The notes under the pieces are model-generated. The model was not told the DNA's origin. It ran no database searches and was given only the letters and a program-made list of their open reading frames with translations. A stretch of 64,000 bases of DNA from positions 2,914,001-2,978,000 of the forward strand of contig NZ_CP079946.1 of the NCBI RefSeq assembly GCF_019968905.1, in the 5' to 3' direction. This stretch comes from Corallococcus sp. EGB. GTDB lineage: Bacteria; Myxococcota; Myxococcia; Myxococcales; Myxococcaceae. Shown here one piece after another: positions 1 to 14,681 of the stretch. The translations under genes were made by a program, and so were the position numbers. Every line of letters starts with the position of its first letter. Position 1 is the stretch's first letter.

Positions 1-509
1 AGGGCTACACGCAGCGATCCGGGGACGGGCTCAACCCCGTCCTGCGGCGGTGGGCCCTCCAATTCTCCAGCCTCTCGAAGGTGGACGCGGACGGCCTGGA
101 GGCCTTCCTGCGTGCCCGTGCTGGTGTCGAGGCCTTCGAGTTCGTCACCCTGGACACGGCCTGGGCCGTCACCGCGCAGCCCTTCGGGGTGGGGGATGGG
201 GGCCGGACGCAGTGGCTCCTCCAGCGTCCGCTCTCCGCGGATGTGCCGGAGCTGCTGGTGCCTGCCGGGGACTGGACGGCACCGCCCACCGTTTATGTCG
301 CGGGCATCACCCAGGTGGAGGGGACGGACTACGAACTGTCCGGTTCGGGCCTCGTCACCTTTGCCGCAGCGCCGGCCGCCGGGGCCGCGCTCACGTTCGC
401 CGGCGCGGGTGAACTGGTGGCGCATGTCGTGTGCGAGGAGTGGCACCGCACCGCGAAGGGCTTCAACGCCTACGACTTCACCGCGACGTTCCAGGAGGAG
501 GCAGGGTGA
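1..509 (+). CDS. Lambda gpM-like minor tail protein (5' end outside window)
   Basis: The reading frame is already open at base 3 and ends in TGA at 507-509, so the N-terminus is missing. The first visible residues (GYTQRSGDGLN) match the 'FGDGYSQR..GLN' signature of lambda minor tail protein M, and the end (FTATFQEE) resembles the gpM end. The protein is longer than lambda gpM (about 109 aa) because of an insertion of about 55 residues in the middle. gpM acts at the tail tip during siphophage tail assembly. The stop overlaps the GTG start of the next gene (GTGA), which indicates translational coupling, and the gene order M-L-K-I-J is lambda's. The family is well supported; the true start is unknown. 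Confidence 0.75.
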   Translation, partial: GYTQRSGDGLNPVLRRWALQFSSLSKVDADGLEAFLRARAGVEAFEFVTLDTAWAVTAQPFGVGDGGRTQWLLQRPLSADVPELLVPAGDWTAPPTVYVAGITQVEGTDYELSGSGLVTFAAAPAAGAALTFAGAGELVAHVVCEEWHRTAKGFNAYDFTATFQEEAG

Positions 510-1201
510 GCATCGCCAGCGACATCCAGAGGCTAGACGCGGGGGCCCTTGTGGAGCTCTTCGTCCTGGACGCCACCAACCTGCCTGGCGGGGGCGTCAG
601 CCATTTCCACGCGGGCACCAACGGGCTCCGCGGGCCCGTCGTCTGGCAGGGCATGGCCTATGAGCCCTGGGCCATCCAGGTCAAGGGATTCGACAAGTCC
701 GGCATGGGGCGGCTGCCCCGGCCCACTCTGACGCTCGCCAATGTCGCCGGCACCATCGGCGCCATGGCGCGGGACCTGAACGATCTGCTGGGGGCGCGTG
801 TCCTGCGGAAGCGCACCTTCGTCCGCTACCTGGACGCGGTGAACTTCCCCGGGGGCGTCAACCCCACCGCCTCGCCGCTGGACGCCTTCCCGGATGACGA
901 GTTCGTGGTGGACCAGAAGACGGTGGAGAACAAACACGTCATCGAGTTCAGCCTGGCCGCGAAGTGTGACCTGGACGGTGTCCGCATCCCGCTGCGCATC
1001 ATCACGCAGATGTGCCCCTGGGAGTACCGCGGCGAGGGCTGCGGCTACGCCGGCCCTCCGGTGGCGAAGCGGAATGACACGCCCACGTTCAGCGCCACCG
1101 AGGATCGGTGCGGGAAGCGCCTGGCGAGCTGCAAGCTGCGCTTTGGGGAGAAGAACGTCCTTCCGTACGGCGGATTCCCTGCGGTCGGACTCATCCGCTA
1201 A
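506..1201 (+). CDS. Lambda gpL-like minor tail protein with Fe-S cysteine motif
   Basis: This 231-aa protein starts at a GTG overlapping the previous stop. Cysteines at about 170, 179, 202 and 209 lie in the C-terminal motif CPWEYRGEGCGYAGPPVA...C......C. As I recall it, this 9/23/7 spacing is that of the four cysteines binding the [4Fe-4S] cluster in lambda gpL, a protein needed to initiate tail tip assembly. The protein is full length; its stop codon is now TAA because an IS630-type element was inserted at the stop (see that entry). gpK should follow directly in a lambda-like module, but here it is about 6.3 kb away. Confidence 0.88.
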   Translation: MSIASDIQRLDAGALVELFVLDATNLPGGGVSHFHAGTNGLRGPVVWQGMAYEPWAIQVKGFDKSGMGRLPRPTLTLANVAGTIGAMARDLNDLLGARVLRKRTFVRYLDAVNFPGGVNPTASPLDAFPDDEFVVDQKTVENKHVIEFSLAAKCDLDGVRIPLRIITQMCPWEYRGEGCGYAGPPVAKRNDTPTFSATEDRCGKRLASCKLRFGEKNVLPYGGFPAVGLIR

Positions 1202-2381
1202 TCCTATGACCGGGTGAAGTCAGTGTGGTGGTAATGGAATTTCGCTCGGGCCTTCGGCACAGTGAATCGCCAGCGAATCCGGAGCTGGTGGCGGTTGGCC
1301 CACTTCTGCCATGCCTGCGTTTCGCAGCGAAGCTTGTCGAGCGTGGGGATACGCCGCCTTCCCAAACACTGACGGGAGAGCACGGAAATCTCCACCTCCG
1401 CCTGATTGAGCCGACTGCCGTGGACGGGCGTGTAGTATGGAGTGAATCGACGCCAGAGCCGACGCCCTGCACATACCCCGTACCGCACCTCCAACGCATG
1501 GCGGCTGTGGGTACTGAGGTTGTCCAGAACCAGGTGGATGGTGTTCGCCTCCGGTACTGCTTGGCGATGTCCTGGAGGGCTTCGGCAAACGCCGGACTCT
1601 TTCTGTTGGGTGTGGCCTTCACGAAATGCCACCCTGCCTTGGGCTCCACCACGCAGAAGAGATTCGCCGTGCCACAGCGGAAGTAGGCGTAGTCCCGACA
1701 TGCCTCACGCCCAGGGCAGGCGGGCGATGCTGGGCGTACCCACTCCAGCAACTGCACGGGTCGCTCATCGAAGCAACTGACGGGTTCAGTGGGGCACACG
1801 GGCCGCTGGTACAGTTCCAGCACGTCTTCCATTTGCTGGGCGTATTGGGCGTCCAGCTTTGGCACTCACCACACTTTTTCCCGCCACGGCTTCAAGTCAT
1901 GACGCAGGAGGAGTTCGCGCACGGTTTCCCGCCTAACCTCCGGAACCAGGCCCCGGCGTATTGCTTCCCGCGTAATGAGGCGGACCGTCCAGCGGGCGCG
2001 CCCCGCAGGCGGCGGTGCACACACCATGGCGACCACCTCGCTGGCCTGCTTCTCCGTGAGGCGCCGCGACGCCGCAGGCCGCGGCTTCTCATGAAGCGCT
2101 GCGCTGAGCCCCTCCTCCCGGTAGCGTCTTCGGACGGTGCGCACCGTGGTTTCAGTGACGCCCACTGCCTCGGTCACTCCCACAACCGGCCAGCCCGCCG
2201 CTAGCAGTTGCAGCACCCGGGCTCGCCACAACACCGCACTGACTCGCATCCTCGGTGCGTCAGCGCCTTCAGCGCTGCGCTGTCCGCCGCCTTCAGCTTC
2301 AACCCTTGGCTTCTCGTGTGCCTCCTCATACCCGGAGCAACAGCGACAGTTCGCCCGTTAATCTCCACCCGATCAAAGGAC
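1201..2381 (-). mobile_element. IS630-family insertion sequence (inactive)
   Basis: This is a 1181-bp element. The left end (from 1201, ATCCTATGACCGGGTG) and the reverse complement of the right end (to 2381, GTCCTTTGATCGGGTG) are imperfect terminal inverted repeats. TA occurs on both flanks (1199-1200 and 2382-2383), as expected for IS630/Tc1-type TA target duplication. The only gene inside is a minus-strand IS630-type transposase broken by a nonsense and a frameshift mutation. Removing the element with one TA rebuilds a TAG stop for gpL, so the insertion did not change the tail protein. The ends were read by eye and could be off by a base. Confidence 0.82.
1204..2249 (-). pseudogene. IS630-family transposase, inactivated
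   Basis: The N-terminal part (2249-1866) has the helix-turn-helix start of IS630 transposases (GVTETTVRTVRRRYREEGL). An in-frame TGA then replaces the usual Cys codon in the conserved 'KVWC-PKLD' segment. The catalytic part continues in the same frame (CFDERPVQLLEWV, first Asp). Near 1556 one base is missing, and the remainder (HLVLDNLSTH, second Asp; HGSRLNQAEVEI, Glu) lies in the next frame up to 1204. Both lesions make a functional product unlikely, although some IS630 elements use programmed frameshifting; the nonsense codon argues against that here. Confidence 0.9.
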
Positions 2382-2497
2382 TAGTGGAGCACGTTTCCTG
2401 GTCTTGTACCATGCACTGGAGGGTCGGCCTCTACCCAGGCGATTGTCTTCACCAATCGCTGGCATTGGGAGTCGCGGGAGCCTGATACTGATTCATC

Positions 2498-3001
2498 ATG
2501 GTGACCCGCTCCGTTTCGAATCGGGCTTTCTCGCTCTTGCTGTACATCCTGACCACGTCGATCGTCGCGGCTGGATGCAGCCCTTGGCGGTTCCGATTGA
2601 GAGAACGCCCCGACGTTGCCGGCGACAAACCGCACTCGCTGCTCTTGAGATGCGGCGATCAGCCCATCCGGTTCGCGGTGACGGACGAGGGGTTCGTGCG
2701 CGGCTTCGGGCCTGTGAAGCTGACGTGTGATCCCATGAATCCGAGCAATAGCTGCACTGCGCCGAACGAGCAGGGGGAGGATGCCCATGCAATCAAGGTC
2801 GAAGCAGGCGCATGGTTAATGGTCGAAGCTCACGTCGACTCGCTCCCTAAGGGCGCGAGCACAGCCAATGGGGCCCTCTGCTGGGGGGAGAAGGCCGGAT
2901 CTTCGGAATGCGCAGTCGACGCATACCTGCTGGACTTGTACATCGAGTGCCAGAATCCAATTGTGGAGGAGCAGAAGAAGGGGGCGGAGTCGAAGCCGTG
3001 A
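2498..3001 (+). CDS. Small lipoprotein of the cargo cassette
   Basis: This 167-aa protein starts at ATG 2498 with a hydrophobic signal ending in a lipobox (IVAAG-Cys27), so it is predicted to be lipid-anchored. The mature part has several Cys residues (RCGDQP, LTCDP, NSCTAP, LCWGE, SECAVD, IECQN), which suggests disulfides outside the cytoplasm. No family is recognised. It overlaps the next gene at GTGA, so the three cargo genes are translationally coupled. GC content is visibly lower than in the tail genes. It may anchor or assist the downstream VWA/protease protein, but that is only an inference from co-transcription. Confidence 0.72.
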   Translation: MVTRSVSNRAFSLLLYILTTSIVAAGCSPWRFRLRERPDVAGDKPHSLLLRCGDQPIRFAVTDEGFVRGFGPVKLTCDPMNPSNSCTAPNEQGEDAHAIKVEAGAWLMVEAHVDSLPKGASTANGALCWGEKAGSSECAVDAYLLDLYIECQNPIVEEQKKGAESKP

Positions 3002-4806
3002 CCATATTCATGTCGTCAGCCTGGCGAGGGCGTGGCCTCTTGGCGGGGTGCCTTGTGAGCCTGCTCCTGGCTTTGTCGGGAGGGGCACATGCCAGTGGGA
3101 CACAGAAGGACTGCAACGTTCGAGGGAACGTCTCGCTGGTCCTGGCTTTTGATCGTTCCAGGAGCATGGATCCGGCTGCTGAACATACCTTCGCGGCAAT
3201 CAAACGCGCTCTTTCGAGCCCACAGTGGGGCGACCTCAAATGTGAGATTTTCTATGTGGCCCGAGGGTTCTATGCACCCCGCCCCACGGTCGCGCGCAGG
3301 CCTGATGGGAGGGCCCCCACGCAGCGATTGGAGTGGTTCCCTGCCTGTGACGGGGGCACAGACTGCACCACGGATAAAGTCTTCGCTCATTTCAATGAGA
3401 AGACCGAGGATGAGCGGGAGTCCTTTCTTGCCCGAGTGAGCGCCGCAACCGCCGATGCTGGAAACAGGAACAAACTCAATAGGGACAACACTCCCCTGGC
3501 GGAGGCGATTCGTTGGGCATCTCAGCATCCTCGGCCTGCAGATGCACCGACGGGCATCAGCATCCTCATTCTGGCAACGGATGGTATTCCCGAATACGGC
3601 GTATTGGTTGGCCTCCAAGCCAAATCAAAGCTCGACTGTGCCCCCCACGGTGAACTTGTGACGGACATGCGGAATGCTTGGCTGGAAGCGCGCCACCAGT
3701 TCAGCCACATCTTCGTCATCGATCCCGCGCGTGCCCAGGATGCCGGAAGCAAACTGCGTCCTGGGTCTGATCTCGACTTCCTGAAATCAGTTGCGACCGG
3801 GGCGGAACTATCAAGCCTTCCTCCTCCTGCGTCCGTGCCCAAGGGTTGCGATGGAGGCGTCAACCTCCTTCCGCTGAATGACATGGCCCCAGAGAAACTG
3901 CGCGCCGAGATCAGCAGCTTCTCCGCAGGCAGTTCTGACAGTGTGAATGAACTGGCTGCGAAGTTCGTCAAGCTATTGAAGGAAACCTGCGATCTCTCCA
4001 GCACCTGTTGCGACCCCGAAATCTGCGACGGCATAGATAATGACTGTGACGGCGATGTTGATGAACTGCCATGCCCGAGCTGCGAATCAGCGCCGGCTGG
4101 TTTCCCCGAGGTCGTCGCGGTCGGCATGAGGGGGCGCTATTGGTGCTCGGGGGTGGTCATATCCCCGCATGCCGTGCTCACAGCTCGCCACTGCCTGCCC
4201 GCCGATACGGTGCTCTCCGGCGAGTCCATCCATGCAGTCGCGGAGTTGCGGCGGGCCGTCCGGGTGCACGTTCCCAGTGAGCTCGGAGCGGACGTTGCGG
4301 TGTTGGAACTGGAGGCGCCATTGAAGGTTCTCTCGCCGCCACGGCGCCATTCAGGGGACGTCTCCCCCCCAACGAGTGCGCTCTCCCACGTGGGCTTCGG
4401 GACATCAACTCCACAAGGCGAGCTGGGCTTCGGCTTCAAGCATGCGCTGGCGCTAGACGGAAGAGGCTGGGGGTGTGACCGGGAAATTGCACTGGAGACC
4501 GGATGTGACCCGTCCTTGGAGATGTTCGTCCCTGGCAGCCCGGGAAGGGATACCTGCCAGGGGGATAGCGGGGGGGGGCTCTTCGAGCTCGTACCTCCCA
4601 TCCCCGCTTGCGTAGATCCGGTGACGCGAGCCTGGCTCCCGCAGCGTCGTCTCCTCGGGGTGACCTCTCGAACCACGAGCCGTGCAACGGTGGCGTGTGG
4701 TCAGGGCGGAATCTACACGCGAATCGATCAAATCGCACCCTGGCTAGATCCTCTGCTCAAAGACATCCACAAGCGTCATGCCGTGCAGGGAGGGGATTCG
4801 GAATGA
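2998..4806 (+). CDS. Secreted VWA / MopE-motif / trypsin-like serine protease
   Basis: This is a 602-aa protein if the coupled GTG at 2998 is used (ATG 3010 is the alternative). The order is: a signal peptide (about 10-32); a von Willebrand A domain with a MIDAS motif (AFDRSRS, Asp about 52) and later ATDG; a myxobacterial MopE-type Cys motif (EICDGIDNDCDGDVDE); and an S1 trypsin-like domain. The catalytic triad is visible as TARHC (His about 399), GADVAVLEL (Asp about 433) and CQGDSGGG (Ser about 524). All three catalytic residues are present, so the protease is predicted active and exported. Fusing an adhesion/metal-binding domain to a protease suggests a substrate-targeted surface enzyme. 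It is not a phage structural gene despite its location. Confidence 0.85.
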   Translation: MTIFMSSAWRGRGLLAGCLVSLLLALSGGAHASGTQKDCNVRGNVSLVLAFDRSRSMDPAAEHTFAAIKRALSSPQWGDLKCEIFYVARGFYAPRPTVARRPDGRAPTQRLEWFPACDGGTDCTTDKVFAHFNEKTEDERESFLARVSAATADAGNRNKLNRDNTPLAEAIRWASQHPRPADAPTGISILILATDGIPEYGVLVGLQAKSKLDCAPHGELVTDMRNAWLEARHQFSHIFVIDPARAQDAGSKLRPGSDLDFLKSVATGAELSSLPPPASVPKGCDGGVNLLPLNDMAPEKLRAEISSFSAGSSDSVNELAAKFVKLLKETCDLSSTCCDPEICDGIDNDCDGDVDELPCPSCESAPAGFPEVVAVGMRGRYWCSGVVISPHAVLTARHCLPADTVLSGESIHAVAELRRAVRVHVPSELGADVAVLELEAPLKVLSPPRRHSGDVSPPTSALSHVGFGTSTPQGELGFGFKHALALDGRGWGCDREIALETGCDPSLEMFVPGSPGRDTCQGDSGGGLFELVPPIPACVDPVTRAWLPQRRLLGVTSRTTSRATVACGQGGIYTRIDQIAPWLDPLLKDIHKRHAVQGGDSE

Positions 4807-7082
4807 ATCGCTGGGTGTACATTGTACTGTGTTTGGGGCTGCTTCACGCTGTGGCTTCGGCCGCCGAGCCCATTGCCCCTATTCCACTGGGGAGGGGGCT
4901 TCTCAGCGTCGGGAGCACCAAGGTTTTCATGGTCACTCCCATGACGACTCCACCGACACGGACTCGGTGCAGCTTTGATCGCGTAAAGGTCAAGGAGAGC
5001 ACTGAGAGCGCGCATGTGGAGGTGGTATGGGATCCCGCTGAGGCAGCGCCTTTGTCCAAGAAGGTCATTCTGGAGGCGGGGGAATGGCAGGTGTCGTTCT
5101 CGGCGCTTCCCCAGCAGCACCCCACGGACCCCTACGCCAATCTTGCCTGGAGCGTGTTCTCCTTCCCCGCAGACTTCGAGGCAAGCATGGCCTGCGGTAA
5201 TGATGTTGCGCGTTACGCATTTGCCTACAAGCGAATTTCCAAGGGAGGTCAATTTCCCCCAACGGATGGAGGGAGCCCGGATCAGATTCTTACGTCCCCA
5301 GAGTGGGAGCGCGTCCCTATCACCTTCCGATGCTCGAACATGCCTTCCATCGAGAAACTGGTCGAGGGGTTCGGCCAGCAGGGAGAGGTGTATACGCCCA
5401 TCTCCAGTGGGCAGCGGAGTCTCGCCCAGGAGGCTCAGCCGCTGCTGAACGACATGCTCCAGGCCGTGGCCGACGTTGCCGTGATGCGCGTCGAGGCCCA
5501 GGCGCTGGAGGTCGCTAAGGAGCGCATCAGCTACCAGCTCTGCGGAGGATGGGTGGACGAGCATCTCGACCAGCTCATCCCCAGCATTTCGGGCTTCGCC
5601 GCGCAGCCTGCGTTGCATCCGGTGTTTTCGCAGACCTGCTCGGCCATTCATCGGCTGACACTCCAGGATCTCGACAACGTGGGGAACGTGCTGCGCCGCG
5701 CGATGCTCGTGGACCTGGGCCAGTTCACGGCCGGCATGCTGCGTCATCGGTACGCGGCCTGCTTCGAGCCCACCGCGCGATTGAAGCCCGAGTGCGTGTC
5801 CTTCCTGGATGCAGGCAACATCACGAAAGCCTACGCGCTCATCCTCGCAGGGCTCGCGACCGTCTTAGTCTCCTCTCAGCTCGAGGCACCGAACCTCTCG
5901 GACGCGCAGTTGCTCGTGCAGCAGATTCTGGAGCGGCTCAAAAAGACACTTCTGGACGGGGACACGAAGCTGACGGCCAACACTGGACTGACTCAGCTGA
6001 GTCAGGGTGATGCCGCGAAGGTGGGACTGGTCGTGGCCGCTGGTGCCATCGCATGGTGCCACGCGAACGGTCGCTGCGACACGAACGCCATTCGTAACAT
6101 CACGCACGACCCCTCGCGCTTCTTCACGCCGTTCTCGGGCTACTCGACGGAGCAGGTCAAGGCACTCTCCCAAATGCCTGAGTACCAGCACCTGGAGGGC
6201 AAGATTATCTCTCTGGTTGAACAGGGCGTGGAGGTGATGGCTCCGCGCAAGGGCGAGGACGCGCGCCAGGCAATTCAGCGTGCGGCCCTCCTCGCCTTCG
6301 ATGTCTTTGATCTGTTGCTCCAAGCGGACTGTGGTGCTGGCACGAGCACACTCCGGTGCGTGCAACTACGCGCGAAGGTGAGCAGCCTCCGGTCGCTGAC
6401 CGTGGGTGTGCTCAACCAGGATCCTCCTACGGCGGTGCTTGCGTTCGCCGCGGTGTTGGCTATGGAGTTGGTCAACCAGAACGAGGCCGATCTCTCCCGG
6501 GGGCTGCGGGCAGCAGGCGCGCTCTCATCCTACGCCGCCAGCTACAGCAACCCTCCGGACCGAATTCTCTCTCCGGTGGAGAGGCGAGAGCGGCGAGCCC
6601 AAGCCGTCAATGCGCTCGCCGACGTTGCTGCTGAGCGAGTGCTCCGCGTCAAGGAGTTTTCCGGCTCGCTAGGGGTGACTCCGGGCATCCTGGGCCTGCG
6701 GAATGTCTACGGAGACCGTATCTACCCGAAGTATGGCCTCCAGGCGTCCTTCCCGATTGGCCTGACCGGCCACTACTTGCTTACGGAAGAACTCGGCGTC
6801 TTCGGTGCCCTGAACTTCGTGGACGTTGGCCAATACATCACGACCGTGCGCAAGATCCCGGATGCGGAGGATTCTAAAGAGGAAGATCCGAAGGACAAGA
6901 AGGCGGAATTCGCGCCCAGTCCCTTCACGTCACTCATGCTGGGCGGACAAATCGGTCTCCAGTACCACGGCTTCGTCCTGGCGTTCGACGCCCGCTACGC
7001 CCCCCAGCTCCAGACCGACGTCAGCAGCGGCTCCATCGGCATCCAGATCGGCTACTACATCCCACTCGTTCACCTCTTCTGA
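4803..7082 (+). CDS. Exported protein with barrel-like C-terminus (cargo gene 3)
   Basis: This 759-aa protein starts at an ATGA overlap with the protease gene. It has a signal peptide (YIVLCLGLLHAVASAAEP), then a long, mainly helical middle without a recognised domain. The last 130 residues or so have alternating strands (SLMLGGQIGLQYHGFVLAF, SIGIQIGYYIPLVHLF) and end in a terminal Phe, as in outer-membrane beta-barrel proteins. With the lipoprotein and VWA-protease it forms a three-gene, fully overlapping operon for the cell envelope. Barrel topology is an inference from strand alternation and the terminal residue; the function is unknown. Confidence 0.7.
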   Translation: MNRWVYIVLCLGLLHAVASAAEPIAPIPLGRGLLSVGSTKVFMVTPMTTPPTRTRCSFDRVKVKESTESAHVEVVWDPAEAAPLSKKVILEAGEWQVSFSALPQQHPTDPYANLAWSVFSFPADFEASMACGNDVARYAFAYKRISKGGQFPPTDGGSPDQILTSPEWERVPITFRCSNMPSIEKLVEGFGQQGEVYTPISSGQRSLAQEAQPLLNDMLQAVADVAVMRVEAQALEVAKERISYQLCGGWVDEHLDQLIPSISGFAAQPALHPVFSQTCSAIHRLTLQDLDNVGNVLRRAMLVDLGQFTAGMLRHRYAACFEPTARLKPECVSFLDAGNITKAYALILAGLATVLVSSQLEAPNLSDAQLLVQQILERLKKTLLDGDTKLTANTGLTQLSQGDAAKVGLVVAAGAIAWCHANGRCDTNAIRNITHDPSRFFTPFSGYSTEQVKALSQMPEYQHLEGKIISLVEQGVEVMAPRKGEDARQAIQRAALLAFDVFDLLLQADCGAGTSTLRCVQLRAKVSSLRSLTVGVLNQDPPTAVLAFAAVLAMELVNQNEADLSRGLRAAGALSSYAASYSNPPDRILSPVERRERRAQAVNALADVAAERVLRVKEFSGSLGVTPGILGLRNVYGDRIYPKYGLQASFPIGLTGHYLLTEELGVFGALNFVDVGQYITTVRKIPDAEDSKEEDPKDKKAEFAPSPFTSLMLGGQIGLQYHGFVLAFDARYAPQLQTDVSSGSIGIQIGYYIPLVHLF

Positions 7083-7462
7083 GCGGGCCGGTCCCTGGCG
7101 TCCTCACTCGGATGCCAAGTTCCGCTTTTGGAACTGGGCCTGATCCGCTTTCGGCTCCCCGGCAATTCGTATGGAGGGTGCACGCAGGTAGCGAGTAGTC
7201 CCCTGCGTCAGGGAAGTTGTCGCCTCGGCTGAGCGGCAGGGATGCCCACTCCTTGGGGCGAGAGCCGACAGGACGTAGTGCCGTACACGGATGGATTCAA
7301 GACGCAAATGGTGAAGCGGATGGTGGGCCCCGGCGCGATGGCTACTGTTTCGCAGAAGTCTCGCGGACGGCAAGGTGGCCTTCTACGTCGCCTATGCCCG
7401 GCGCAATGCCTCGCTGAGTGCATTGGGCGGATCCTGTCCACGCGGTCCCGCACCATGCCTGC
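7083..7462. other. Intergenic region between cargo and tail gene K
   Basis: This is 380 bp between the cargo operon and gpK. It contains a transposase fragment (listed separately) and, after a frame change, a short readable stretch (LADGKVAFYVAYARRN, about 7361-7408) that might be a remnant of the original phage sequence. No intact gene was found. It probably marks the right-hand junction of the cargo insertion. Confidence 0.5.
7282..7350 (+). pseudogene. Fragment of IS3-type transposase N-terminus
   Basis: The translation YTDGFKTQMVKRMVGPGAM resembles the N-terminal start of OrfA-type transposases common in myxobacteria ('DGFKxQMVxRMxGP', just before the helix-turn-helix). The similarity stops after about 25 residues and no start codon, downstream frame or terminal repeat remains. 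It looks like a scar of a second mobile element on the right flank of the cargo. The assignment rests on memory of a short motif. Confidence 0.45.
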
Positions 7463-8194
7463 ATGAGCGACCCCTGCCGGCTGACGCTGGCCAATGACGT
7501 CCTGTGCGCCGCGCTTGCCCACGCCCAGGCGGACTACCCTCGCGAGTCCTGCGGCCTCGTGGTGCTGGTGGACGGCGCCCAGCGGTACCGCCCCTGCCGG
7601 AACCTCGCCGCCGGCCAGGCGCACTTCGTCCTCTCCCCGGAGGACTACGCCCGCGCGGAAGGGGAGGGCGAGGTGGTGGCGGTGGTGCACTCCCACCCCA
7701 ACGCCGCGCCGGAGCCCAGCGAGGCGGACCGGGTGATGATGGAGCGCTGGGGCCTGCCCTGGCTCATCCTCAACGTGCCGGTGGGGCACTGGCGCCTCTG
7801 CTACCCCGACGGCTACCGGCCGCCGCTGGTGGGCCGCACGTTCAGCCACGGCGTCCTCGACTGCTACTCCCTCATCCAGGACTACTACCGGGAGCGCCTG
7901 GTCCTAACGCTGCCCGACTTCGAGCGCCCGGACGACTGGTGGGCGAAGGGCGGCAATCTCTACCTGGAGGGCTTCGGCCGCGCGGGCTTCGTGGATGTGA
8001 CGGGGCAGCCCCCGCGCGAGCACGATGTCCTCCTCATGCAGCTGCGTGCCCCGGTGCCCAACCACGCGGGCGTGTACCTGGGCGGGGACGTCCTCCTGCA
8101 CCACGTCATGGGGCGCCTGTCCGGCCGGGAGACGTACTCCGGCTTTTGGGCCCGCATCACCCAGCGTGTCGTGAGGCACGCGTCCCGATGCTGA
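7463..8194 (+). CDS. Lambda gpK-like tail protein (JAMM + NlpC/P60)
   Basis: This is a 243-aa tail assembly protein. The N-terminal half is a JAB1/MPN domain with the JAMM metal motif: Glu28 (RESCG), His76-Ser-His78-Pro, Ser86 and Asp89. The C-terminal half is an NlpC/P60 domain with Cys134 (DCYSL), His201 (NHAGVYLG) and the gpK end pattern (LLHHVMGRLSGRETYSGFW). In lambda-type phages this protein acts at the tail tip and may cut peptidoglycan during DNA entry. ATG 7463 gives the family's usual start. Its end overlaps the start of gene I by 7 bp. Confidence 0.92.
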   Translation: MSDPCRLTLANDVLCAALAHAQADYPRESCGLVVLVDGAQRYRPCRNLAAGQAHFVLSPEDYARAEGEGEVVAVVHSHPNAAPEPSEADRVMMERWGLPWLILNVPVGHWRLCYPDGYRPPLVGRTFSHGVLDCYSLIQDYYRERLVLTLPDFERPDDWWAKGGNLYLEGFGRAGFVDVTGQPPREHDVLLMQLRAPVPNHAGVYLGGDVLLHHVMGRLSGRETYSGFWARITQRVVRHASRC

Positions 8195-9249
8195 CGACCA
8201 TCGTCCTGGGCGGGCCCCTGGGGAAGCGCTTCGGGCGCGTCTGGAGGCTGGACCTCTCCGTGCCCTCGCCCGCGGAGGCTGTGCGGGCCCTCTCGGCCGT
8301 CTGCGACGGCTTCCGCCGCTACCTCGCGGAGAACAGCGAGCCCGGCTACCACGTCTTCGCGGGCAAGCGGGACGTGGGGGAGGGCGACCTGGGCATGCCT
8401 ACCGGCGCGCGCGTCCTCACCCTCATGCCCGCGCTGGCCGGGGCGAAGTCCGGCTGGTTCCAGGTGGTGGCCGGCGCGGTGCTCATCGCCGCCGGCGCCG
8501 TCCTCACCGTCTACGGGTACGGCGCGGGCATGCCCCTCATCACCGCGGGCATCTCCCTGGTGGTGGGGGGCGTCTCGCAGCTCCTCTTCGCCCCGCCCAC
8601 CGCCACCGGGCCGGACGAGAAGGACGCCAACAAGCCCAGCTACGTCTTCAACGGCCCCGTCAACACGCTCGCCCAGGGCCACCCAGTACCCATCTGCTAC
8701 GGGGAGATGGAGGTGGGCAGCTGCGTCGTCTCCGCCGGCTTCGTCACCGAGTGGGGCGGTGGTGGCGGCTTCGGCGGCGAGGGTGGCAGCGGGCAGACGG
8801 GCCCTGGCGGGGCCGCGCCCGGCGGCGGCACCTGCCCCGCGCCGTGGGTGCCCATCCTCCTGGCGGACGGGCGCGAGGTGCCCGCGAGCGAAGTCGAGGT
8901 GGGCATGGTGGTGCGTACCCAGGACGAGGAGACGCTGGCGTGGGGCGTCTTCCCCGTCGTCGCCGCGGAGCGCTCCGCGGGCGTGCGCTGGCTGCTGGAG
9001 TTGGAGGACGGCCGACGGCTGGAGGCCACCGGCAACCACCGTGTGCGGACGGAGGACGCCTGGGTGGAACTGCGCCACCTCGCGGCCGGCACGCGGCTGC
9101 TGGGCACGTGGCCGGGCGTGGTGCGCCAGGTGACGCGCGGCGAGCATGGCCCCGTGGTGCGCCTCACCGTGGCGGGCGCGCACACCTACGTGTCCAGCGG
9201 CATCCTCTCGCACAACGTGAAGAAGGCGGACCCGACGGTGGTGGACTGA
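8188..9249 (+). CDS. Lambda gpI-like tail protein with C-terminal Hint domain
   Basis: This is a 353-aa protein. Residues 1-185 match tail assembly protein I (two hydrophobic segments about 92-135, then GHPVPICYGEMEVGS, typical of gpI). A Gly-rich linker (190-214) leads to a Hint/intein-like domain of about 128 residues. It has Cys216 as first residue, ILLADGREVPASEVEVG (block A), TGNH 281-284 (block B) and His342-Asn343 at the end (SGILSHN). Residue +1 is Val, not Cys/Ser/Thr, and only 10 residues follow, so ordinary splicing is not possible and a BIL-type cleavage or ligation is more likely. Lambda gpI has no Hint domain. The gene lies between K and J as in lambda. Confidence 0.88.
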   Translation: MLTTIVLGGPLGKRFGRVWRLDLSVPSPAEAVRALSAVCDGFRRYLAENSEPGYHVFAGKRDVGEGDLGMPTGARVLTLMPALAGAKSGWFQVVAGAVLIAAGAVLTVYGYGAGMPLITAGISLVVGGVSQLLFAPPTATGPDEKDANKPSYVFNGPVNTLAQGHPVPICYGEMEVGSCVVSAGFVTEWGGGGGFGGEGGSGQTGPGGAAPGGGTCPAPWVPILLADGREVPASEVEVGMVVRTQDEETLAWGVFPVVAAERSAGVRWLLELEDGRRLEATGNHRVRTEDAWVELRHLAAGTRLLGTWPGVVRQVTRGEHGPVVRLTVAGAHTYVSSGILSHNVKKADPTVVD

Positions 9250-9250
9250 C

Positions 9251-11989
9251 ATGGGCGGAAGCAGCGGAGGAAAAGGGGAGGGCGGCGCTCAGCGCACCCC
9301 CGTTGAGTCCCCCAACACGTTGAAGTCCAGCTCCAAGGCGCGCGTGCTGGACTTGCTGTGCGAGGGGGAGATTGAAGGCCTCGTGGACGGGCTGAAGTCC
9401 GTCTACCTGGACGGCGTCGCCATCCAGAATCCCGACGGAACCAACAACTTCACGGGCGTCACTCTCTACGATGTGAAGGGCACTCAGTCCCAGGAGTACA
9501 TCCCCGGCTTCCCCTCAGCTGAGTCCGAGCACTCCGTGGGCGTGGAGGTGAAGCACGCCACGCCGGTGGTGCGCACGGTGACGGATCCGGAGGTGGATGC
9601 CGTGCGCATCACCCTCCAGGTGCCCCAACTGACCTACCAGGATCCGATGACAGGCGACTTGAAACCCACCAGCGTTCTGGTTTCCATCGCCGTGCAGAGC
9701 AATGGCGGCGGGTACGTGGTGCAATCCTTCCAGGACGCCGAGCTCTTCCGCGGGAAGTGCACCAGCCCCTATGAGCGCACCTTCCGCGTGGAGCTGACGG
9801 GCTCGCCGCCATGGGACATCCGCGTCACGCGCGTCACTGCGGACGCCAGCAGCGTGACGACGCAGAACAAGGTCATCTGGAAGTCCTACGCGACGCTGCT
9901 GGACGAGAAGCTCAGCTTCCCCAACACCGCGCTGTGTGCGTTGCAGGTGGCGGCCAGCCAGTTCAGCACCATCCCCACGCGCAGCTACCGGATTCGCGGG
10001 CTGCGGGTGCGCGTGCCCAGCAACTACGACCCCGCGGCCCGGACGTACGAAGGCACCTGGGACGGCACGTGGAAGGTGGCCTGGACCGACAACCCGGCCT
10101 GGTGCTTCTACGACTTGCTCACCACGAAGCGCTACGGCCTGGGCCGCTACCTCAACGAGGCCGCGGTAGACAAATGGGGTCTCTACACGGTGGCGAAGTA
10201 CTGCGACGAGTACGTCCCGTCCGGCACCCCGAAGCGCGCCGCCCTCGCTGCCTCCAACCTCTCTCTCGGCGTGGAGGACACGCTGCGCCGGTACTTCCGC
10301 AGCTCGGGCGGGCTCCTCGCCCTTGGCCTGCAGCCTGGCGACGAGGTGGTGTTTTCCGGCTTCGCGAACGCGGCAAACAACGGCCGTGCCACGGTGGAGT
10401 CCGTCTCCGACAGCAACATCACCGTCGCGCGGGGCAAGCCCCTGGTGCTGGAGTCCGAGGCGCCGGGGCGGGGCTTCGTCACGCAGGCGCCGACGGAGCC
10501 GCGCTTCCGCTGCAACCTCTACCTCCAGACGCAGGAGGACGCGTACAAGGTCATCAACAACCTCGCGTCCGTCTTCCGGGGAATGACGTACTGGGCCTCC
10601 GGCGCCGTCTTCGTGGCCCAGGACGCGCCGCGGGACGCCGAGTACCTCTTCACGCCGGCCAACGTGGTGGACGGCCTCTTCACGTACGCGTCCAGCGGTA
10701 AGCGCGCCCGGCACACCGTGGCGCTCGTCACGTGGAATGACCCGGACAACCACTTCAAGACGGCGCAGGAGTACGTCACCGACGAGGAGGGCCTCGCCAC
10801 CTACGGCTACAACCCCACCGAGGTGGTGGCGCTCGGCTGCACCTCGCCGGGCCAGGCGCAGCGCGTGGGCCGGTGGCTCCTCCTCACGGAGAGACTGGAG
10901 ACGGAGACGGTGACGTTCCGCACCGGCTTCGAGGGGGCCATGCGCAACCCCGGCGCGGTGGTGAAGATTCAGGACCCCTACCGCGCCGGGCGCCGGTGGG
11001 GCGGCCGCGTGGTGGCCGCCACCGCCAGCCAGGTGGAGCTCGATGCGGACGTCACCCTTGAGTCCGGGAAGACATACGCCCTCTCAGCGGTGCTGCCGGA
11101 CGGCACCGTGGAGGAGCGTCCGCTGGCTGCGCTCGCGCCGGCGCCATACCGCGCCCTCACCGTGGAGACGCCCTTCTCGTCCGCCCCCCAGCCCCAGGCC
11201 GTCTGGGTGCTGGCCGCGTCCGACTTGACGCCCACCCTCTGGCGCATCCTCAACGTGGCGGAGGTGGAGCCGCACCTCTACGAAATCACCGCGCTGCGCC
11301 ATGAGCCGGGGAAGTACGCGGAGGTGGAGTACGGGGTGAAGCTTCAGCCGCTTCCCACGTCCGTGCTGCCCTCGTCCGCGCCGCCCGCGGGCCTGGCGGT
11401 GGGCGAGTCGCTGTACAAGACGACGAATGGCGGCGTGAAAGTCATGGTGACGGCCCGGTGGACGCAGGTGGCCACCGCCACCGAGTACCGGGTGCGCTGG
11501 CAGCGCGAGGGCGGCAACTGGACGTCGGAGACGCCGGTGCAGACGCACTACTGGGAGCTTCTGGACTGCCTGCCGGGCGCGTACACCGTGCAGGTGGCCG
11601 CCGTCCTCAACGGCCTCGTCACCACCTACGCCTCGGCCAGCTACACTGTGCAGGGCAAGGCGGCCCCACCTTCTAACGTGACGGGCCTCTCCTACACTCT
11701 CAACGGCAACACCGCGACGCTGCGCTGGGCGGAGGTGCCAGACTTGGACAGGGACACCTACGAGCTGCGCTACGGCAGCAGTTGGGAGACAGGGAGTCCC
11801 ATCGGCAAGGTGCGCGCCACCACGCACGAGTGGGCCCTCCCTGCGCCGGGCGTCAACCACCTGGTGCATCTGAAGGCCATCGACACCTCGGGCAACCCCA
11901 GCACGAGCGCGGCGAGCGTCCTCGTGGTGTCCGCGCCCACGGTGCCGGCCACCCTCACCCTGGGGATTTCGTCCACGCCACCTCCGTAA
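9251..11989 (+). CDS. Lambda gpJ-like central tail fibre / host specificity protein
   Basis: This is a 912-aa protein starting one base after gene I ends. The start (NTLKSSSKARVLDLLCEGEIEGLVDG) is the classic gpJ N-terminus ('..S.A...dllSEGpI.Gl'). The middle part (YRIRGLRVRVPSNYDP, WCFYDLLTTKRYGLG) also follows gpJ. The C-terminal 230 residues or so look like two fibronectin type III domains. gpJ forms the tail-tip hub and carries receptor binding in lambda. It ends earlier than lambda gpJ (1132 aa); the distal functions seem to be on the next gene. Confidence 0.9.
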   Translation: MGGSSGGKGEGGAQRTPVESPNTLKSSSKARVLDLLCEGEIEGLVDGLKSVYLDGVAIQNPDGTNNFTGVTLYDVKGTQSQEYIPGFPSAESEHSVGVEVKHATPVVRTVTDPEVDAVRITLQVPQLTYQDPMTGDLKPTSVLVSIAVQSNGGGYVVQSFQDAELFRGKCTSPYERTFRVELTGSPPWDIRVTRVTADASSVTTQNKVIWKSYATLLDEKLSFPNTALCALQVAASQFSTIPTRSYRIRGLRVRVPSNYDPAARTYEGTWDGTWKVAWTDNPAWCFYDLLTTKRYGLGRYLNEAAVDKWGLYTVAKYCDEYVPSGTPKRAALAASNLSLGVEDTLRRYFRSSGGLLALGLQPGDEVVFSGFANAANNGRATVESVSDSNITVARGKPLVLESEAPGRGFVTQAPTEPRFRCNLYLQTQEDAYKVINNLASVFRGMTYWASGAVFVAQDAPRDAEYLFTPANVVDGLFTYASSGKRARHTVALVTWNDPDNHFKTAQEYVTDEEGLATYGYNPTEVVALGCTSPGQAQRVGRWLLLTERLETETVTFRTGFEGAMRNPGAVVKIQDPYRAGRRWGGRVVAATASQVELDADVTLESGKTYALSAVLPDGTVEERPLAALAPAPYRALTVETPFSSAPQPQAVWVLAASDLTPTLWRILNVAEVEPHLYEITALRHEPGKYAEVEYGVKLQPLPTSVLPSSAPPAGLAVGESLYKTTNGGVKVMVTARWTQVATATEYRVRWQREGGNWTSETPVQTHYWELLDCLPGAYTVQVAAVLNGLVTTYASASYTVQGKAAPPSNVTGLSYTLNGNTATLRWAEVPDLDRDTYELRYGSSWETGSPIGKVRATTHEWALPAPGVNHLVHLKAIDTSGNPSTSAASVLVVSAPTVPATLTLGISSTPPP

Positions 11990-11999
11990 ACGTGAGCGC

Positions 12000-14129
12000 A
12001 TGCGCTCGCGCGAGCAGGAAGAAGCGGCCGGCATCTACGACCGCGAGGTGAATGGCGTCCGCTCTCCGCAGCTCATCAAGACGCGCTACCTGGACATCCG
12101 CTGGACGCACGAGGAACTGCTTCCCGCGCACCTCCTCGCGGGCTTCCAGGTAGTCGTCTACGAGGGCAGCGACCCCAACAACACGGACAGCTACCTGCTG
12201 GAGCCGCGGAAGTTCGGCCCCTCCGAGAGGCGGTGGGTGGCGCCGCTGAAGCTGACGCAGCCGACGCAGGTGCAGTGCGCCGTCCAGGCCCTCTACACCA
12301 ACGGCAACCAGAGCAGCTGGCGCGTCCTCGGCGGTGGCGTGGTGGCGGATCCGGACACCATCACGATGGCCGTCGCGGACCTCTCCAACGTCCCCACGGG
12401 CAGCGTCTCCGCCCGGCACATGTCAGCCAGCTCCGTCACCAGCGCCGCAGTGGCCGCAGCGGCCATCAGCTTCCAGCACCTGCTGCTACCGCCCACGGAC
12501 AACCTGGTGCCCAACGGGTACTCGGAGGTGGACGCACAAGGGAAGTCCCCCGAAGGGGACGGGCTGGTGGACGAGCCGGCCAATGCGAAGGAGGGGCGCC
12601 GGTGCCGCAAGCTGACGGTGCCGGCGGGCGGCGGCTTCGTGGGCCTCAACTTCATTGGTGGTTTCCGCAGCACCGCGCCCGGCGGCCGCATCAAGTGCAC
12701 CGCCGGGGACCAGTTCTTCGCCGAGGCATGGTTGAAATCCTCGGCCGCGCTCACCCAGCCCAACGCGACGCTCTTCCTTCTCTGGGAGGGGGCGAATGGC
12801 GGCTACGAAAGCCAGCTCACCACCACCCCGGTGACGCTCACCGCGAGCTACCAGCGCGTGAAACTCAAGGGGACGTGTCCGGCCGGGTGCACTGGCGTGC
12901 AGCTGTACTTCGAGCTCAACGCCGCGAGCGCGGACGCGGGCAAGGCTGTGTACCTGGACGCCGTCAGCATGCGGAAGATGGTGACGTTTGACTTGCTGGT
13001 GGCCAACACCCTCCAGACGTCCAACTACGCGGAGGATGGCAACGGGGTGCCCGTCGCCGGGGCGAAGCTGGACAACGTGGGCACCGCCTTCAAGGCGGCG
13101 GGCGGCAACGTCCAGATTGGCAGCTACCTCTTGGACACGCCCTTCTTCCGGGCGAACCAGGCGCTGGACGGGACGTCAGCCGCGGGGCGCGTCCACTACC
13201 GAGGCAGCAACAACACAGGCGTGCGCGGCGGAGCGCCGCTCATCGACAGGCTGGACGTCCAGTGCACTGACTACTTCCGGTACACGACGCCCATCGTCCA
13301 CTCTTGGCTGGAGCACCACTTCTTCGTGCAGCCCTCCAGCATCGACGACAACCTGGACGCGCTCCGCTACCTCAAAGTGGACTACTACAGCAGCTTCAAC
13401 GCCACGTACCGAGGCACGCGCTACATCCCCCTGCCGGACCGGAAGTACGCCTCGGCGGTGGACGGCAACGCGCTCAACCGCATCGCCGTCAGCCACACCT
13501 TCCAGTACCCGGCGGCCCTCTCCGGACTCAACGGGCAGAACCTGGGGGAGTACGTCGCGCTCTTCTGCGAAATGCACGGCGTCTACGGCGTGAGCGCCTC
13601 CATGTGGTTCACGCCCGTCTACAACGCCGGGTTGGGCATCAACTTCGCGAAGTCCATCGCTTCTCCCTTCTCTGGAGCTCCCTCGGGAGGCGGTGGTGGC
13701 GGCTCTGGCGGAACGGGCGGCACCTGCGTCGCGCCCGAGACGCTCATCACGCTGGAGGACGGGCAGGAGGTGCCCGCGGCGTCGCTTCGCCCTGGCATGC
13801 GCGTCCTCACTCAGCACGAGGAGACGCGCAGGGTGGGTGTCTTCGAGGTGGTGGCCGCCTCCAGCCACCGCGCCGCGCGCTGGTGCGTGGAGCTCACGGA
13901 CGGCCGCGTCCTGGTGGCGACGCCGAACCACCTCCTCTACCGGCGCTTCGCGGGCTGGACGGAGCTGCGCGCACTCCGTCCCGGCGAGCTGCTGGAGGGC
14001 CTGCGCCCGGGGCTCGTGCGCCGCGTGGTGCCGGAAGGGGAGGGCGCCGTCGTGAAGCTCACCGTCCACGGGGCCCGCACCTACGAGTCCGCAGGCCTCC
14101 TCAGCCACAACATCAAGCAGCCCATCTAG
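12000..14129 (+). CDS. Distal tail fibre protein with C-terminal Hint domain
   Basis: This is a 709-aa protein. An FN3-like N-terminus (to about 110) is followed by a segment like the gpJ distal part. A jelly-roll carbohydrate-binding-like region follows (about 165-330, starting DNLVPNGYSE), and then unassigned fibre sequence. A Gly/Ser linker (about 560-574) leads to a Hint domain: Cys576, ITLEDGQEVPAASLRPG, TPNH 641-644, and terminal His703-Asn704 with only IKQPI after it. ATG 12000 lies 10 bp after gpJ with no clear ribosome site, and the frame is open upstream, so it could be a split gpJ. The likely role is receptor binding, with self-cleavage by Hint chemistry. Confidence 0.8.
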   Translation: MRSREQEEAAGIYDREVNGVRSPQLIKTRYLDIRWTHEELLPAHLLAGFQVVVYEGSDPNNTDSYLLEPRKFGPSERRWVAPLKLTQPTQVQCAVQALYTNGNQSSWRVLGGGVVADPDTITMAVADLSNVPTGSVSARHMSASSVTSAAVAAAAISFQHLLLPPTDNLVPNGYSEVDAQGKSPEGDGLVDEPANAKEGRRCRKLTVPAGGGFVGLNFIGGFRSTAPGGRIKCTAGDQFFAEAWLKSSAALTQPNATLFLLWEGANGGYESQLTTTPVTLTASYQRVKLKGTCPAGCTGVQLYFELNAASADAGKAVYLDAVSMRKMVTFDLLVANTLQTSNYAEDGNGVPVAGAKLDNVGTAFKAAGGNVQIGSYLLDTPFFRANQALDGTSAAGRVHYRGSNNTGVRGGAPLIDRLDVQCTDYFRYTTPIVHSWLEHHFFVQPSSIDDNLDALRYLKVDYYSSFNATYRGTRYIPLPDRKYASAVDGNALNRIAVSHTFQYPAALSGLNGQNLGEYVALFCEMHGVYGVSASMWFTPVYNAGLGINFAKSIASPFSGAPSGGGGGGSGGTGGTCVAPETLITLEDGQEVPAASLRPGMRVLTQHEETRRVGVFEVVAASSHRAARWCVELTDGRVLVATPNHLLYRRFAGWTELRALRPGELLEGLRPGLVRRVVPEGEGAVVKLTVHGARTYESAGLLSHNIKQPI

Positions 14130-14138
14130 GAGTCAGCC

Positions 14139-14681
14139 ATGCAGCCCACCCTCACGCAGAGCGACGTCTACGCCATCAATGCCGCCGAGGCCCGGAAGCG
14201 GGACCTGCGGCTGGAGATCGCCCGCATCAAGGGACAGCTCGACGCGTCGGCCGCCTTGTCGCGCGCGGCCGCCGAGGTGAACTCCGCGACGCTGGTGAAG
14301 AAGACGGCGCTCGAGCAGGAGCTGCTGCAACTGGAGTCCTCCGGCGCGGCCCCGGGCAGCAGCGACGACTGGGGGAAGTACTCCACCGTGGAGATGGCGG
14401 CCCAGGACGAGCGCTTCTACGCGAAGGACAAGGGCTACGACTGGCTCGTCTACAACCCGCTGGCCACCCTTGAGGAGACGGTGGCCGAGTTTGAGAAGTA
14501 CATGCTGGAGCAGCGGACCGCCCGGGGGCGGCCCTGGCTGCTCCAGCGCGGTGAGGGGCTCGTCCGCGAGTGGCAGGCGAACGCCTTCGCGCGTGGGCTC
14601 ATCGCTGAGGACTCTTGGTCCGCCTTCCGGGACTGGTTGCTCGCCGTCGGGAAGGAGCGGGCGATCTCTGCTGCTGACTGA
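14139..14681 (+). CDS. Coiled-coil phage protein of unknown function
   Basis: This 180-aa protein starts at ATG 14139 with an AGGAGT ribosome site just upstream. Residues 15-70 form a predicted coiled coil rich in Ala, Glu and Leu (AEARKRDLRLEIARIKGQL). The second half is aromatic and helical (YDWLVYNPLATLEETVAEF). No known domain. It is directly downstream of the fibre gene, so it could be a fibre assembly chaperone or tail accessory protein, as is common at this position; that is inferred from position alone. Confidence 0.7.
   Translation: MQPTLTQSDVYAINAAEARKRDLRLEIARIKGQLDASAALSRAAAEVNSATLVKKTALEQELLQLESSGAAPGSSDDWGKYSTVEMAAQDERFYAKDKGYDWLVYNPLATLEETVAEFEKYMLEQRTARGRPWLLQRGEGLVREWQANAFARGLIAEDSWSAFRDWLLAVGKERAISAAD

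Follow-up and report, generated by a model that had tools for sequence, protein, structure and literature searches.

The lambda-like tail module of Corallococcus sp. EGB, contained in a window of 64,000 nucleotides (NZ_CP079946.1, positions 2,914,001 to 2,978,000; all coordinates below count from the start of this window), raises the question why two of its tail-tip proteins, the homologue of lambda tail assembly protein I (gpI) and a distal fibre protein, both end in an intein-like (Hint) domain. Both are genuine, conserved members of the Hint superfamily in fold. Judged from sequence and modelled structure, we lean, without great assurance, to the reading that each is a C-terminal self-processing module resembling bacterial intein-like domains (BILs), which would leave a near-normal gpI and fibre behind.

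Two Hint domains on either side of gpJ

The features concerned are the following, the linkers and tails being read from the sequence itself:
8188-9249, + strand: open reading frame (ORF) of the gpI homologue, 353 amino acids (aa)
8188..8754, + strand: gpI core (aa 1-189) of the lambda tail assembly protein I type (phrog_32, 8.4e-54, aa 2-188)
8755..8832, + strand: Gly-rich linker of gpI (aa 190-215), terminating in GGGT
8833..9216, + strand: gpI Hint (aa 216-343) with Cys216, His284 and His342-Asn343
9217..9246, + strand: gpI C-terminal tail VKKADPTVVD, with a Lys at +2 (K345) that is kept across carriers
9251..11989, + strand: gpJ homologue, flanked by the two Hint proteins (phrog_31, 2.6e-275; NF049904, 3.8e-143)
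12000-14129, + strand: distal fibre ORF, 709 aa
12000..12404, + strand: N-terminal module of the fibre (aa 1-135), retained in phages L014 and L016, where the fibre lacks a Hint
12405..13664, + strand: fibre distal module (aa 136-555), also found in other phages on Hint-bearing fibres of 1,080 aa
13665..13724, + strand: Gly-rich linker of the fibre (aa 556-575), terminating in GGT
13725..14111, + strand: fibre Hint (aa 576-704) with Cys576 and His703-Asn704
14112..14126, + strand: fibre C-terminal tail IKQPI, with Lys at +2 (K706)

The layout that a preliminary description of this DNA had proposed for both C-termini (Gly-rich linker, complete Hint and short tail) is borne out by the motifs, which are TCPAPW, ATGNH (block B) and LSHN (aa 340-343) before VKKADPTVVD in gpI, and TCVAPE, ATPNH (block B) and LSHN (aa 701-704) before IKQPI in the fibre. 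The two domains are 54% identical to each other, and they were the only matches when the 9.43 Mb chromosome was searched with the fibre Hint. The Pfam and NCBIfam Hint/intein models matched them weakly (E 4e-6 to 0.15, nearly all under the curated cut-offs, with TIGR01443 barely attaining its own in gpI), and these domains can therefore be overlooked by annotation pipelines; the Hint_2 model PF13403 gave no match in a search of the same genome and is thus too distant. The NpuDnaB intein 4o1r was matched at 1.2e-6 as a single sequence and at 6.8e-11 as a profile, and the profile of the Clostridium BIL 2lwy at E 1.7e-7.

The Hint fold, which the same description had expected of both C-termini, was recovered in the AlphaFold models. 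In gpI, residues 216-343 superpose on residues 1-139 of 4o1r (Z 11.9, root-mean-square deviation (rmsd) 4.2) in a model whose predicted local distance difference test score (pLDDT) is 46 overall and 66-84 over most of the Hint, being unreliable outside it; further structural matches were 2lwy and the Tetrahymena domain BUBL1 BIL2 (6y75), each with Z 11.0. The fibre Hint superposes on the Ssp DnaB mini-intein with Z 19.9 and rmsd 1.9 over 137 residues, followed by BUBL1 BIL2 (Z 19.7), 2lwy (18.8) and Hedgehog (17.2-17.3). Chance similarity or mis-framing is ruled out by the homologues found in many phages together with the fold match.

The assignment of the carrier to the lambda gpI family rests on the phrog_32 core, the neighbouring K (JAB and NlpC/P60) and J genes and the gene order L-K-I-J. 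In the lambda-type phages KS9 and ZQG1 the gpI coding sequence comprises 187 aa and stops where the linker starts here, while the window protein without its Hint would have 215 aa. The gpI core was matched in 1,452 phage records, and Hint searches of this collection found none on gpI, since, apart from one J-like protein, all matches lay in genes for a helicase, an ATPase or a terminase; for gpI, the earlier statement that lambda proteins carry no such domain is thereby upheld. In the related gpI family the Hint is present in 8/8 full-length homologues, and it appears to be an addition to gpI that ordinary lambda-type gpI does not have.

Catalytic residues and a conserved lysine

Since the homologue collection was made with a pattern that contains the Cys and the His-Asn pair, the invariance of these residues within it is circular. 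In a masked-profile test the catalytic columns were hidden, in an alignment still derived from the pattern-built collection, and Cys1, the block-B His and the final His-Asn were present in every full-length phage copy, as had been predicted for the first Cys and the final pair. The residues C-H-H-N occupied the four catalytic columns in 86 of 91 unique fragments, the remaining five comprising three truncated pieces and two members of other Hint families. The ratio of non-synonymous to synonymous substitution rates (dN/dS) among Corallococcus copies was 0.29 for the gpI Hint, 0.14 for the gpI core and 0.17 for the fibre Hint, and both Hints are under purifying selection.

The residue following His-Asn (+1) is Val in gpI and Ile in the fibre, which confirms the reported lack of a Cys, Ser or Thr nucleophile in both window copies; among the representatives I, L, A, K, V and M occur at this position, with Thr in L060 and L061 (HN followed by TKNEDP). 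A Lys follows the His-Asn pair in the 31 non-redundant copies (at +2 in 23, at +1 in 6 and at +3 in 2), so that Lys at +1 or +2 characterises 29/31 phage-tail Hints versus 0/9 toxin-type Hints from the same searches (Fisher p 2e-7, with relatedness among the sequences ignored). This placement of Lys seems to be a feature newly recognised here.

The gpI C-tail codons at 9217-9250 (GTGAAGAAGGCGGAC) include a Shine-Dalgarno-like AAGAAGG about 25-30 bases before the J start, and the conservation of the gpI tail may in consequence be partly translational. The Lys as a by-product of the ribosome site of the next gene is possible for gpI. The Lys is also retained where no close downstream gene exists (L070, L067, L064) and in internal Hints (HN followed by KS), and for these fibres and internal copies such an origin is ruled out.

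Carriers of the domain and the surrounding locus

The preliminary description attached meaning to the paired use of Hint domains on either side of gpJ. This part does not stand, as L014 and L016 retain the gpI-Hint while their fibre, which is 59-62% identical to the window fibre over aa 1-135 only, ends without a Hint. Moreover, the distal fibre module and its Hint are found on 1,080-aa fibres of other phages (the one in L070 being encoded 3' of a tape-measure-like gene), near which no lambda-type gpI or J was detected. Pairing is thus common and not required, and obligatory pairing is ruled out. A quick tree of 76 Hint domains, built from few columns, contains one branch that sets the gpI-Hints apart, one for each of two fibre types and one for the 1,080-aa type, with support in the Shimodaira-Hasegawa-like approximate likelihood ratio test (SH-aLRT) of 91, 99 and 82, and 100, respectively. 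The separate branches indicate independent, long-lived fusions, the Hint of every carrier being inherited in its own line, and the tree does not favour a recent transfer of the domain between the gpI and fibre genes inside one phage.

The same Hint terminates J-like hub proteins (L141, L152 and L128, the last at L128:2656-4869 of the human-gut phage MT835519, where the record leaves it unannotated), phrog_376 tail proteins (L079, L139, L142, L143, L157) and further fibres. It lies at most 14 residues from the C-terminus in 27/31 non-redundant copies, and a Gly-rich linker precedes nearly all of them. That unrelated phages repeatedly have this kind of domain at the end of a tail-tip protein suggests a self-acting cutting or joining step in tail maturation. 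The large proteins encoded on contigs L148, L149 and L154 carry related Hints internally, where the junction reads His-Asn-Lys and 229-1,137 residues lie beyond the domain; such copies may be true splicing elements that use lysine.

The tail genes of the window are ordered L-K-I-J-fibre, with a cargo stretch separating L from K. The other features are:
431..1201, + strand: gpL homologue (phrog_18, 1.4e-101)
7418..8194, + strand: gpK homologue with Prok-JAB (PF14464, 1.2e-18) and NlpC/P60 (PF00877, 2.7e-9), immediately upstream of gpI
14139..14681, + strand: 180-aa ORF without family match, 3' of the Hint-bearing fibre

The stretch at 1202-7417 is a variable cargo slot of about 6.2 kb, which contains in the window a trypsin-like ORF (2908-4806) and an 824-aa ORF, and in L054, L055, L056, L057, L060 and L084 different genes over 0.8-3.1 kb. 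The 180-aa ORF also follows Hint-bearing fibres in L012, L060, L063, L068 and L078 and was not found behind the Hint-less fibre of L014 and L016; it is possibly a fibre chaperone or partner.

What the domains may do

The nearest relatives in sequence and structure are the class 1 DnaB mini-inteins (4o1r, 1mi8), which are inserted in a conserved enzyme, whereas the window copies have no Cys, Ser or Thr at +1 and almost no C-extein (10 residues follow in gpI and 5 in the fibre, in place of a second needed extein), and the phage Hints carry a conserved tail instead; a canonical splicing intein is thereby ruled out. The A-type BILs share with the window domains the Hint fold, Cys1, the His-Asn end and the absence of a fixed +1 nucleophile. 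They reside in variable proteins (PMC7765530, PMC5874633), while the phage Hints, also in comparison with the C. thermocellum BIL (2lwy), sit at the very end of tail proteins, behind a Gly-rich linker, have Lys at +1 or +2 and have replaced the F-block Asp. A Hedgehog-type Hog domain would have a sterol-recognition region after the Hint, where only 5-10 residues are present, and a PT-HINT toxin is ruled out by the short tail with no C-terminal toxin domain. Phage fibres are also known to carry C-terminal autoproteolytic chaperone domains of the peptidase S74 type, which are likewise self-removing C-terminal modules; the Hint, however, is unrelated to them in fold and chemistry and occurs also on gpI and J-like hubs. 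Full-text literature searches, whose coverage mostly excludes subscription journals, returned no prior report of a Hint or intein-like domain on phage tail proteins.

The suggestion of the preliminary description that tail-tip proteins may process themselves is well founded. The accompanying wording, that the domains should cleave or ligate rather than splice, was too strong, since Hint domains without a +1 nucleophile are still able to splice (going by the titles of Dassa 2004 and Aranko 2013 in the reference list of PMC4031507) and BUBL1 BIL2 splices through lysine to a lysine isopeptide product (PMC8616854). From what was computed, namely the fold, catalytic residues, conservation, architecture and recurrence in tail proteins, we infer the reaction itself, the bond broken and the role of the product as follows. 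Once the domain has folded, its Cys1 (C216 in gpI, C576 in the fibre) would, with the assistance of the block-B His, convert the peptide bond before it into a thioester, and the His-Asn pair would permit Asn cyclisation with release of the short Lys-bearing tail; the retention of His-Asn so close to the end of the chain argues that this C-terminal chemistry is used. The acyl group could then be resolved by water or an amine, most simply the amine of the released tail, in a nucleophile-free splicing. The Hint would be shed, leaving gpI with about 215 aa or up to 10 more, near the ordinary lambda-type length, and the fibre with 575 aa. In lambda, gpI is resolved up to residue 223 (PMC10721106) and runs through gaps of J, contacting its FNIII-A domain (PMC10721106, PMC11101478); an extra domain at the gpI C-terminus could therefore set the timing of this assembly or protect it, and the Hint may act as a temporary cap or assembly timer for the threading of gpI into the J cone and for the trimerisation of the fibre.

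Several observations weigh against such self-removal. Where canonical inteins have an Asp in block F (VFDLTV in 4o1r), the phage Hints mostly have Lys or Arg, and the F-block His, kept in gpI Hints, is replaced by Arg or Lys in the type of fibre Hint seen in the window, so that fibres may carry out the C-terminal step slowly or not at all. In four of the 31 carriers (L062 and the contigs L148, L149 and L154) the Hint is followed by 61-1,137 residues, and for the wider family the removal of a terminal cap is thus an insufficient explanation. The altered F-block, together with the weak scores of curated library profiles, would suit a former intein fused to tail genes that is now inert or persists as a non-reacting fold. 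This is quite improbable, because the catalytic residues are kept without exception in full-length phage copies, the two Hints are under purifying selection, the domain recurs at tail-protein C-termini of distant phages, its length of about 130 aa leaves no space for an endonuclease domain, and the one branch per carrier shows vertical retention.

The conserved Lys opens a different route, in which the Cys1 thioester would be passed to the own +1/+2 Lys, or to a Lys on J or another tail protein, with formation of an isopeptide that might be undone or edited by the JAB protein K. Its enrichment over toxin-type Hints and its retention beyond any ribosome site are consistent with this, as are the isopeptide made by BUBL1 BIL2, which ranks among the best structural matches and likewise acts on proteins with ubiquitin-like (Ub-like) domains, the intact JAMM motif seen on inspection of the K sequence, and the N-terminal Ub-like domain and JAB neighbour of gpI-type proteins (PMC1779556). 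Nevertheless, we regard such ligation as rather unlikely, as a conserved basic residue may merely orient the tail or the active site, and BIL2 lies between two Ub-like domains with its substrate Lys in the neighbouring one, whereas in gpI the Hint is attached behind the C-terminal domain and well away from the Ub-like one. The bolder version, an ATP-free ligase in the tail tip whose gpI or fibre thioesters would be handed to the own +2 Lys or to a Lys of a neighbouring tail protein to form isopeptide cross-links, with Ub-like gpI and JAB-bearing K as maker and breaker, is more doubtful still. The fibre Hint might also stay on the virion and pass its thioester to an amine or hydroxyl of the host surface in a Hedgehog-like manner, as it lies furthest out on the fibre, moves with the distal and not the N-terminal attachment module, and matches the Hedgehog Hint in structure (Z 17). 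Such a covalent adhesin is very improbable, for it leaves the Hint on gpI unexplained and does not account for the kept His-Asn and Lys tail, neither of which Hedgehog requires.

Tail-tip maturation, and the reason why lambda-type phages keep a Ub-like protein beside a JAB peptidase, are unsettled matters, for which a Hint fused to gpI, J-like hubs and fibres provides a direct experimental handle. The conserved His-Asn-x-Lys end suggests that the chemistry of these Hints is unusual, and a compact tool for C-terminal labelling or ligation could be developed from it.

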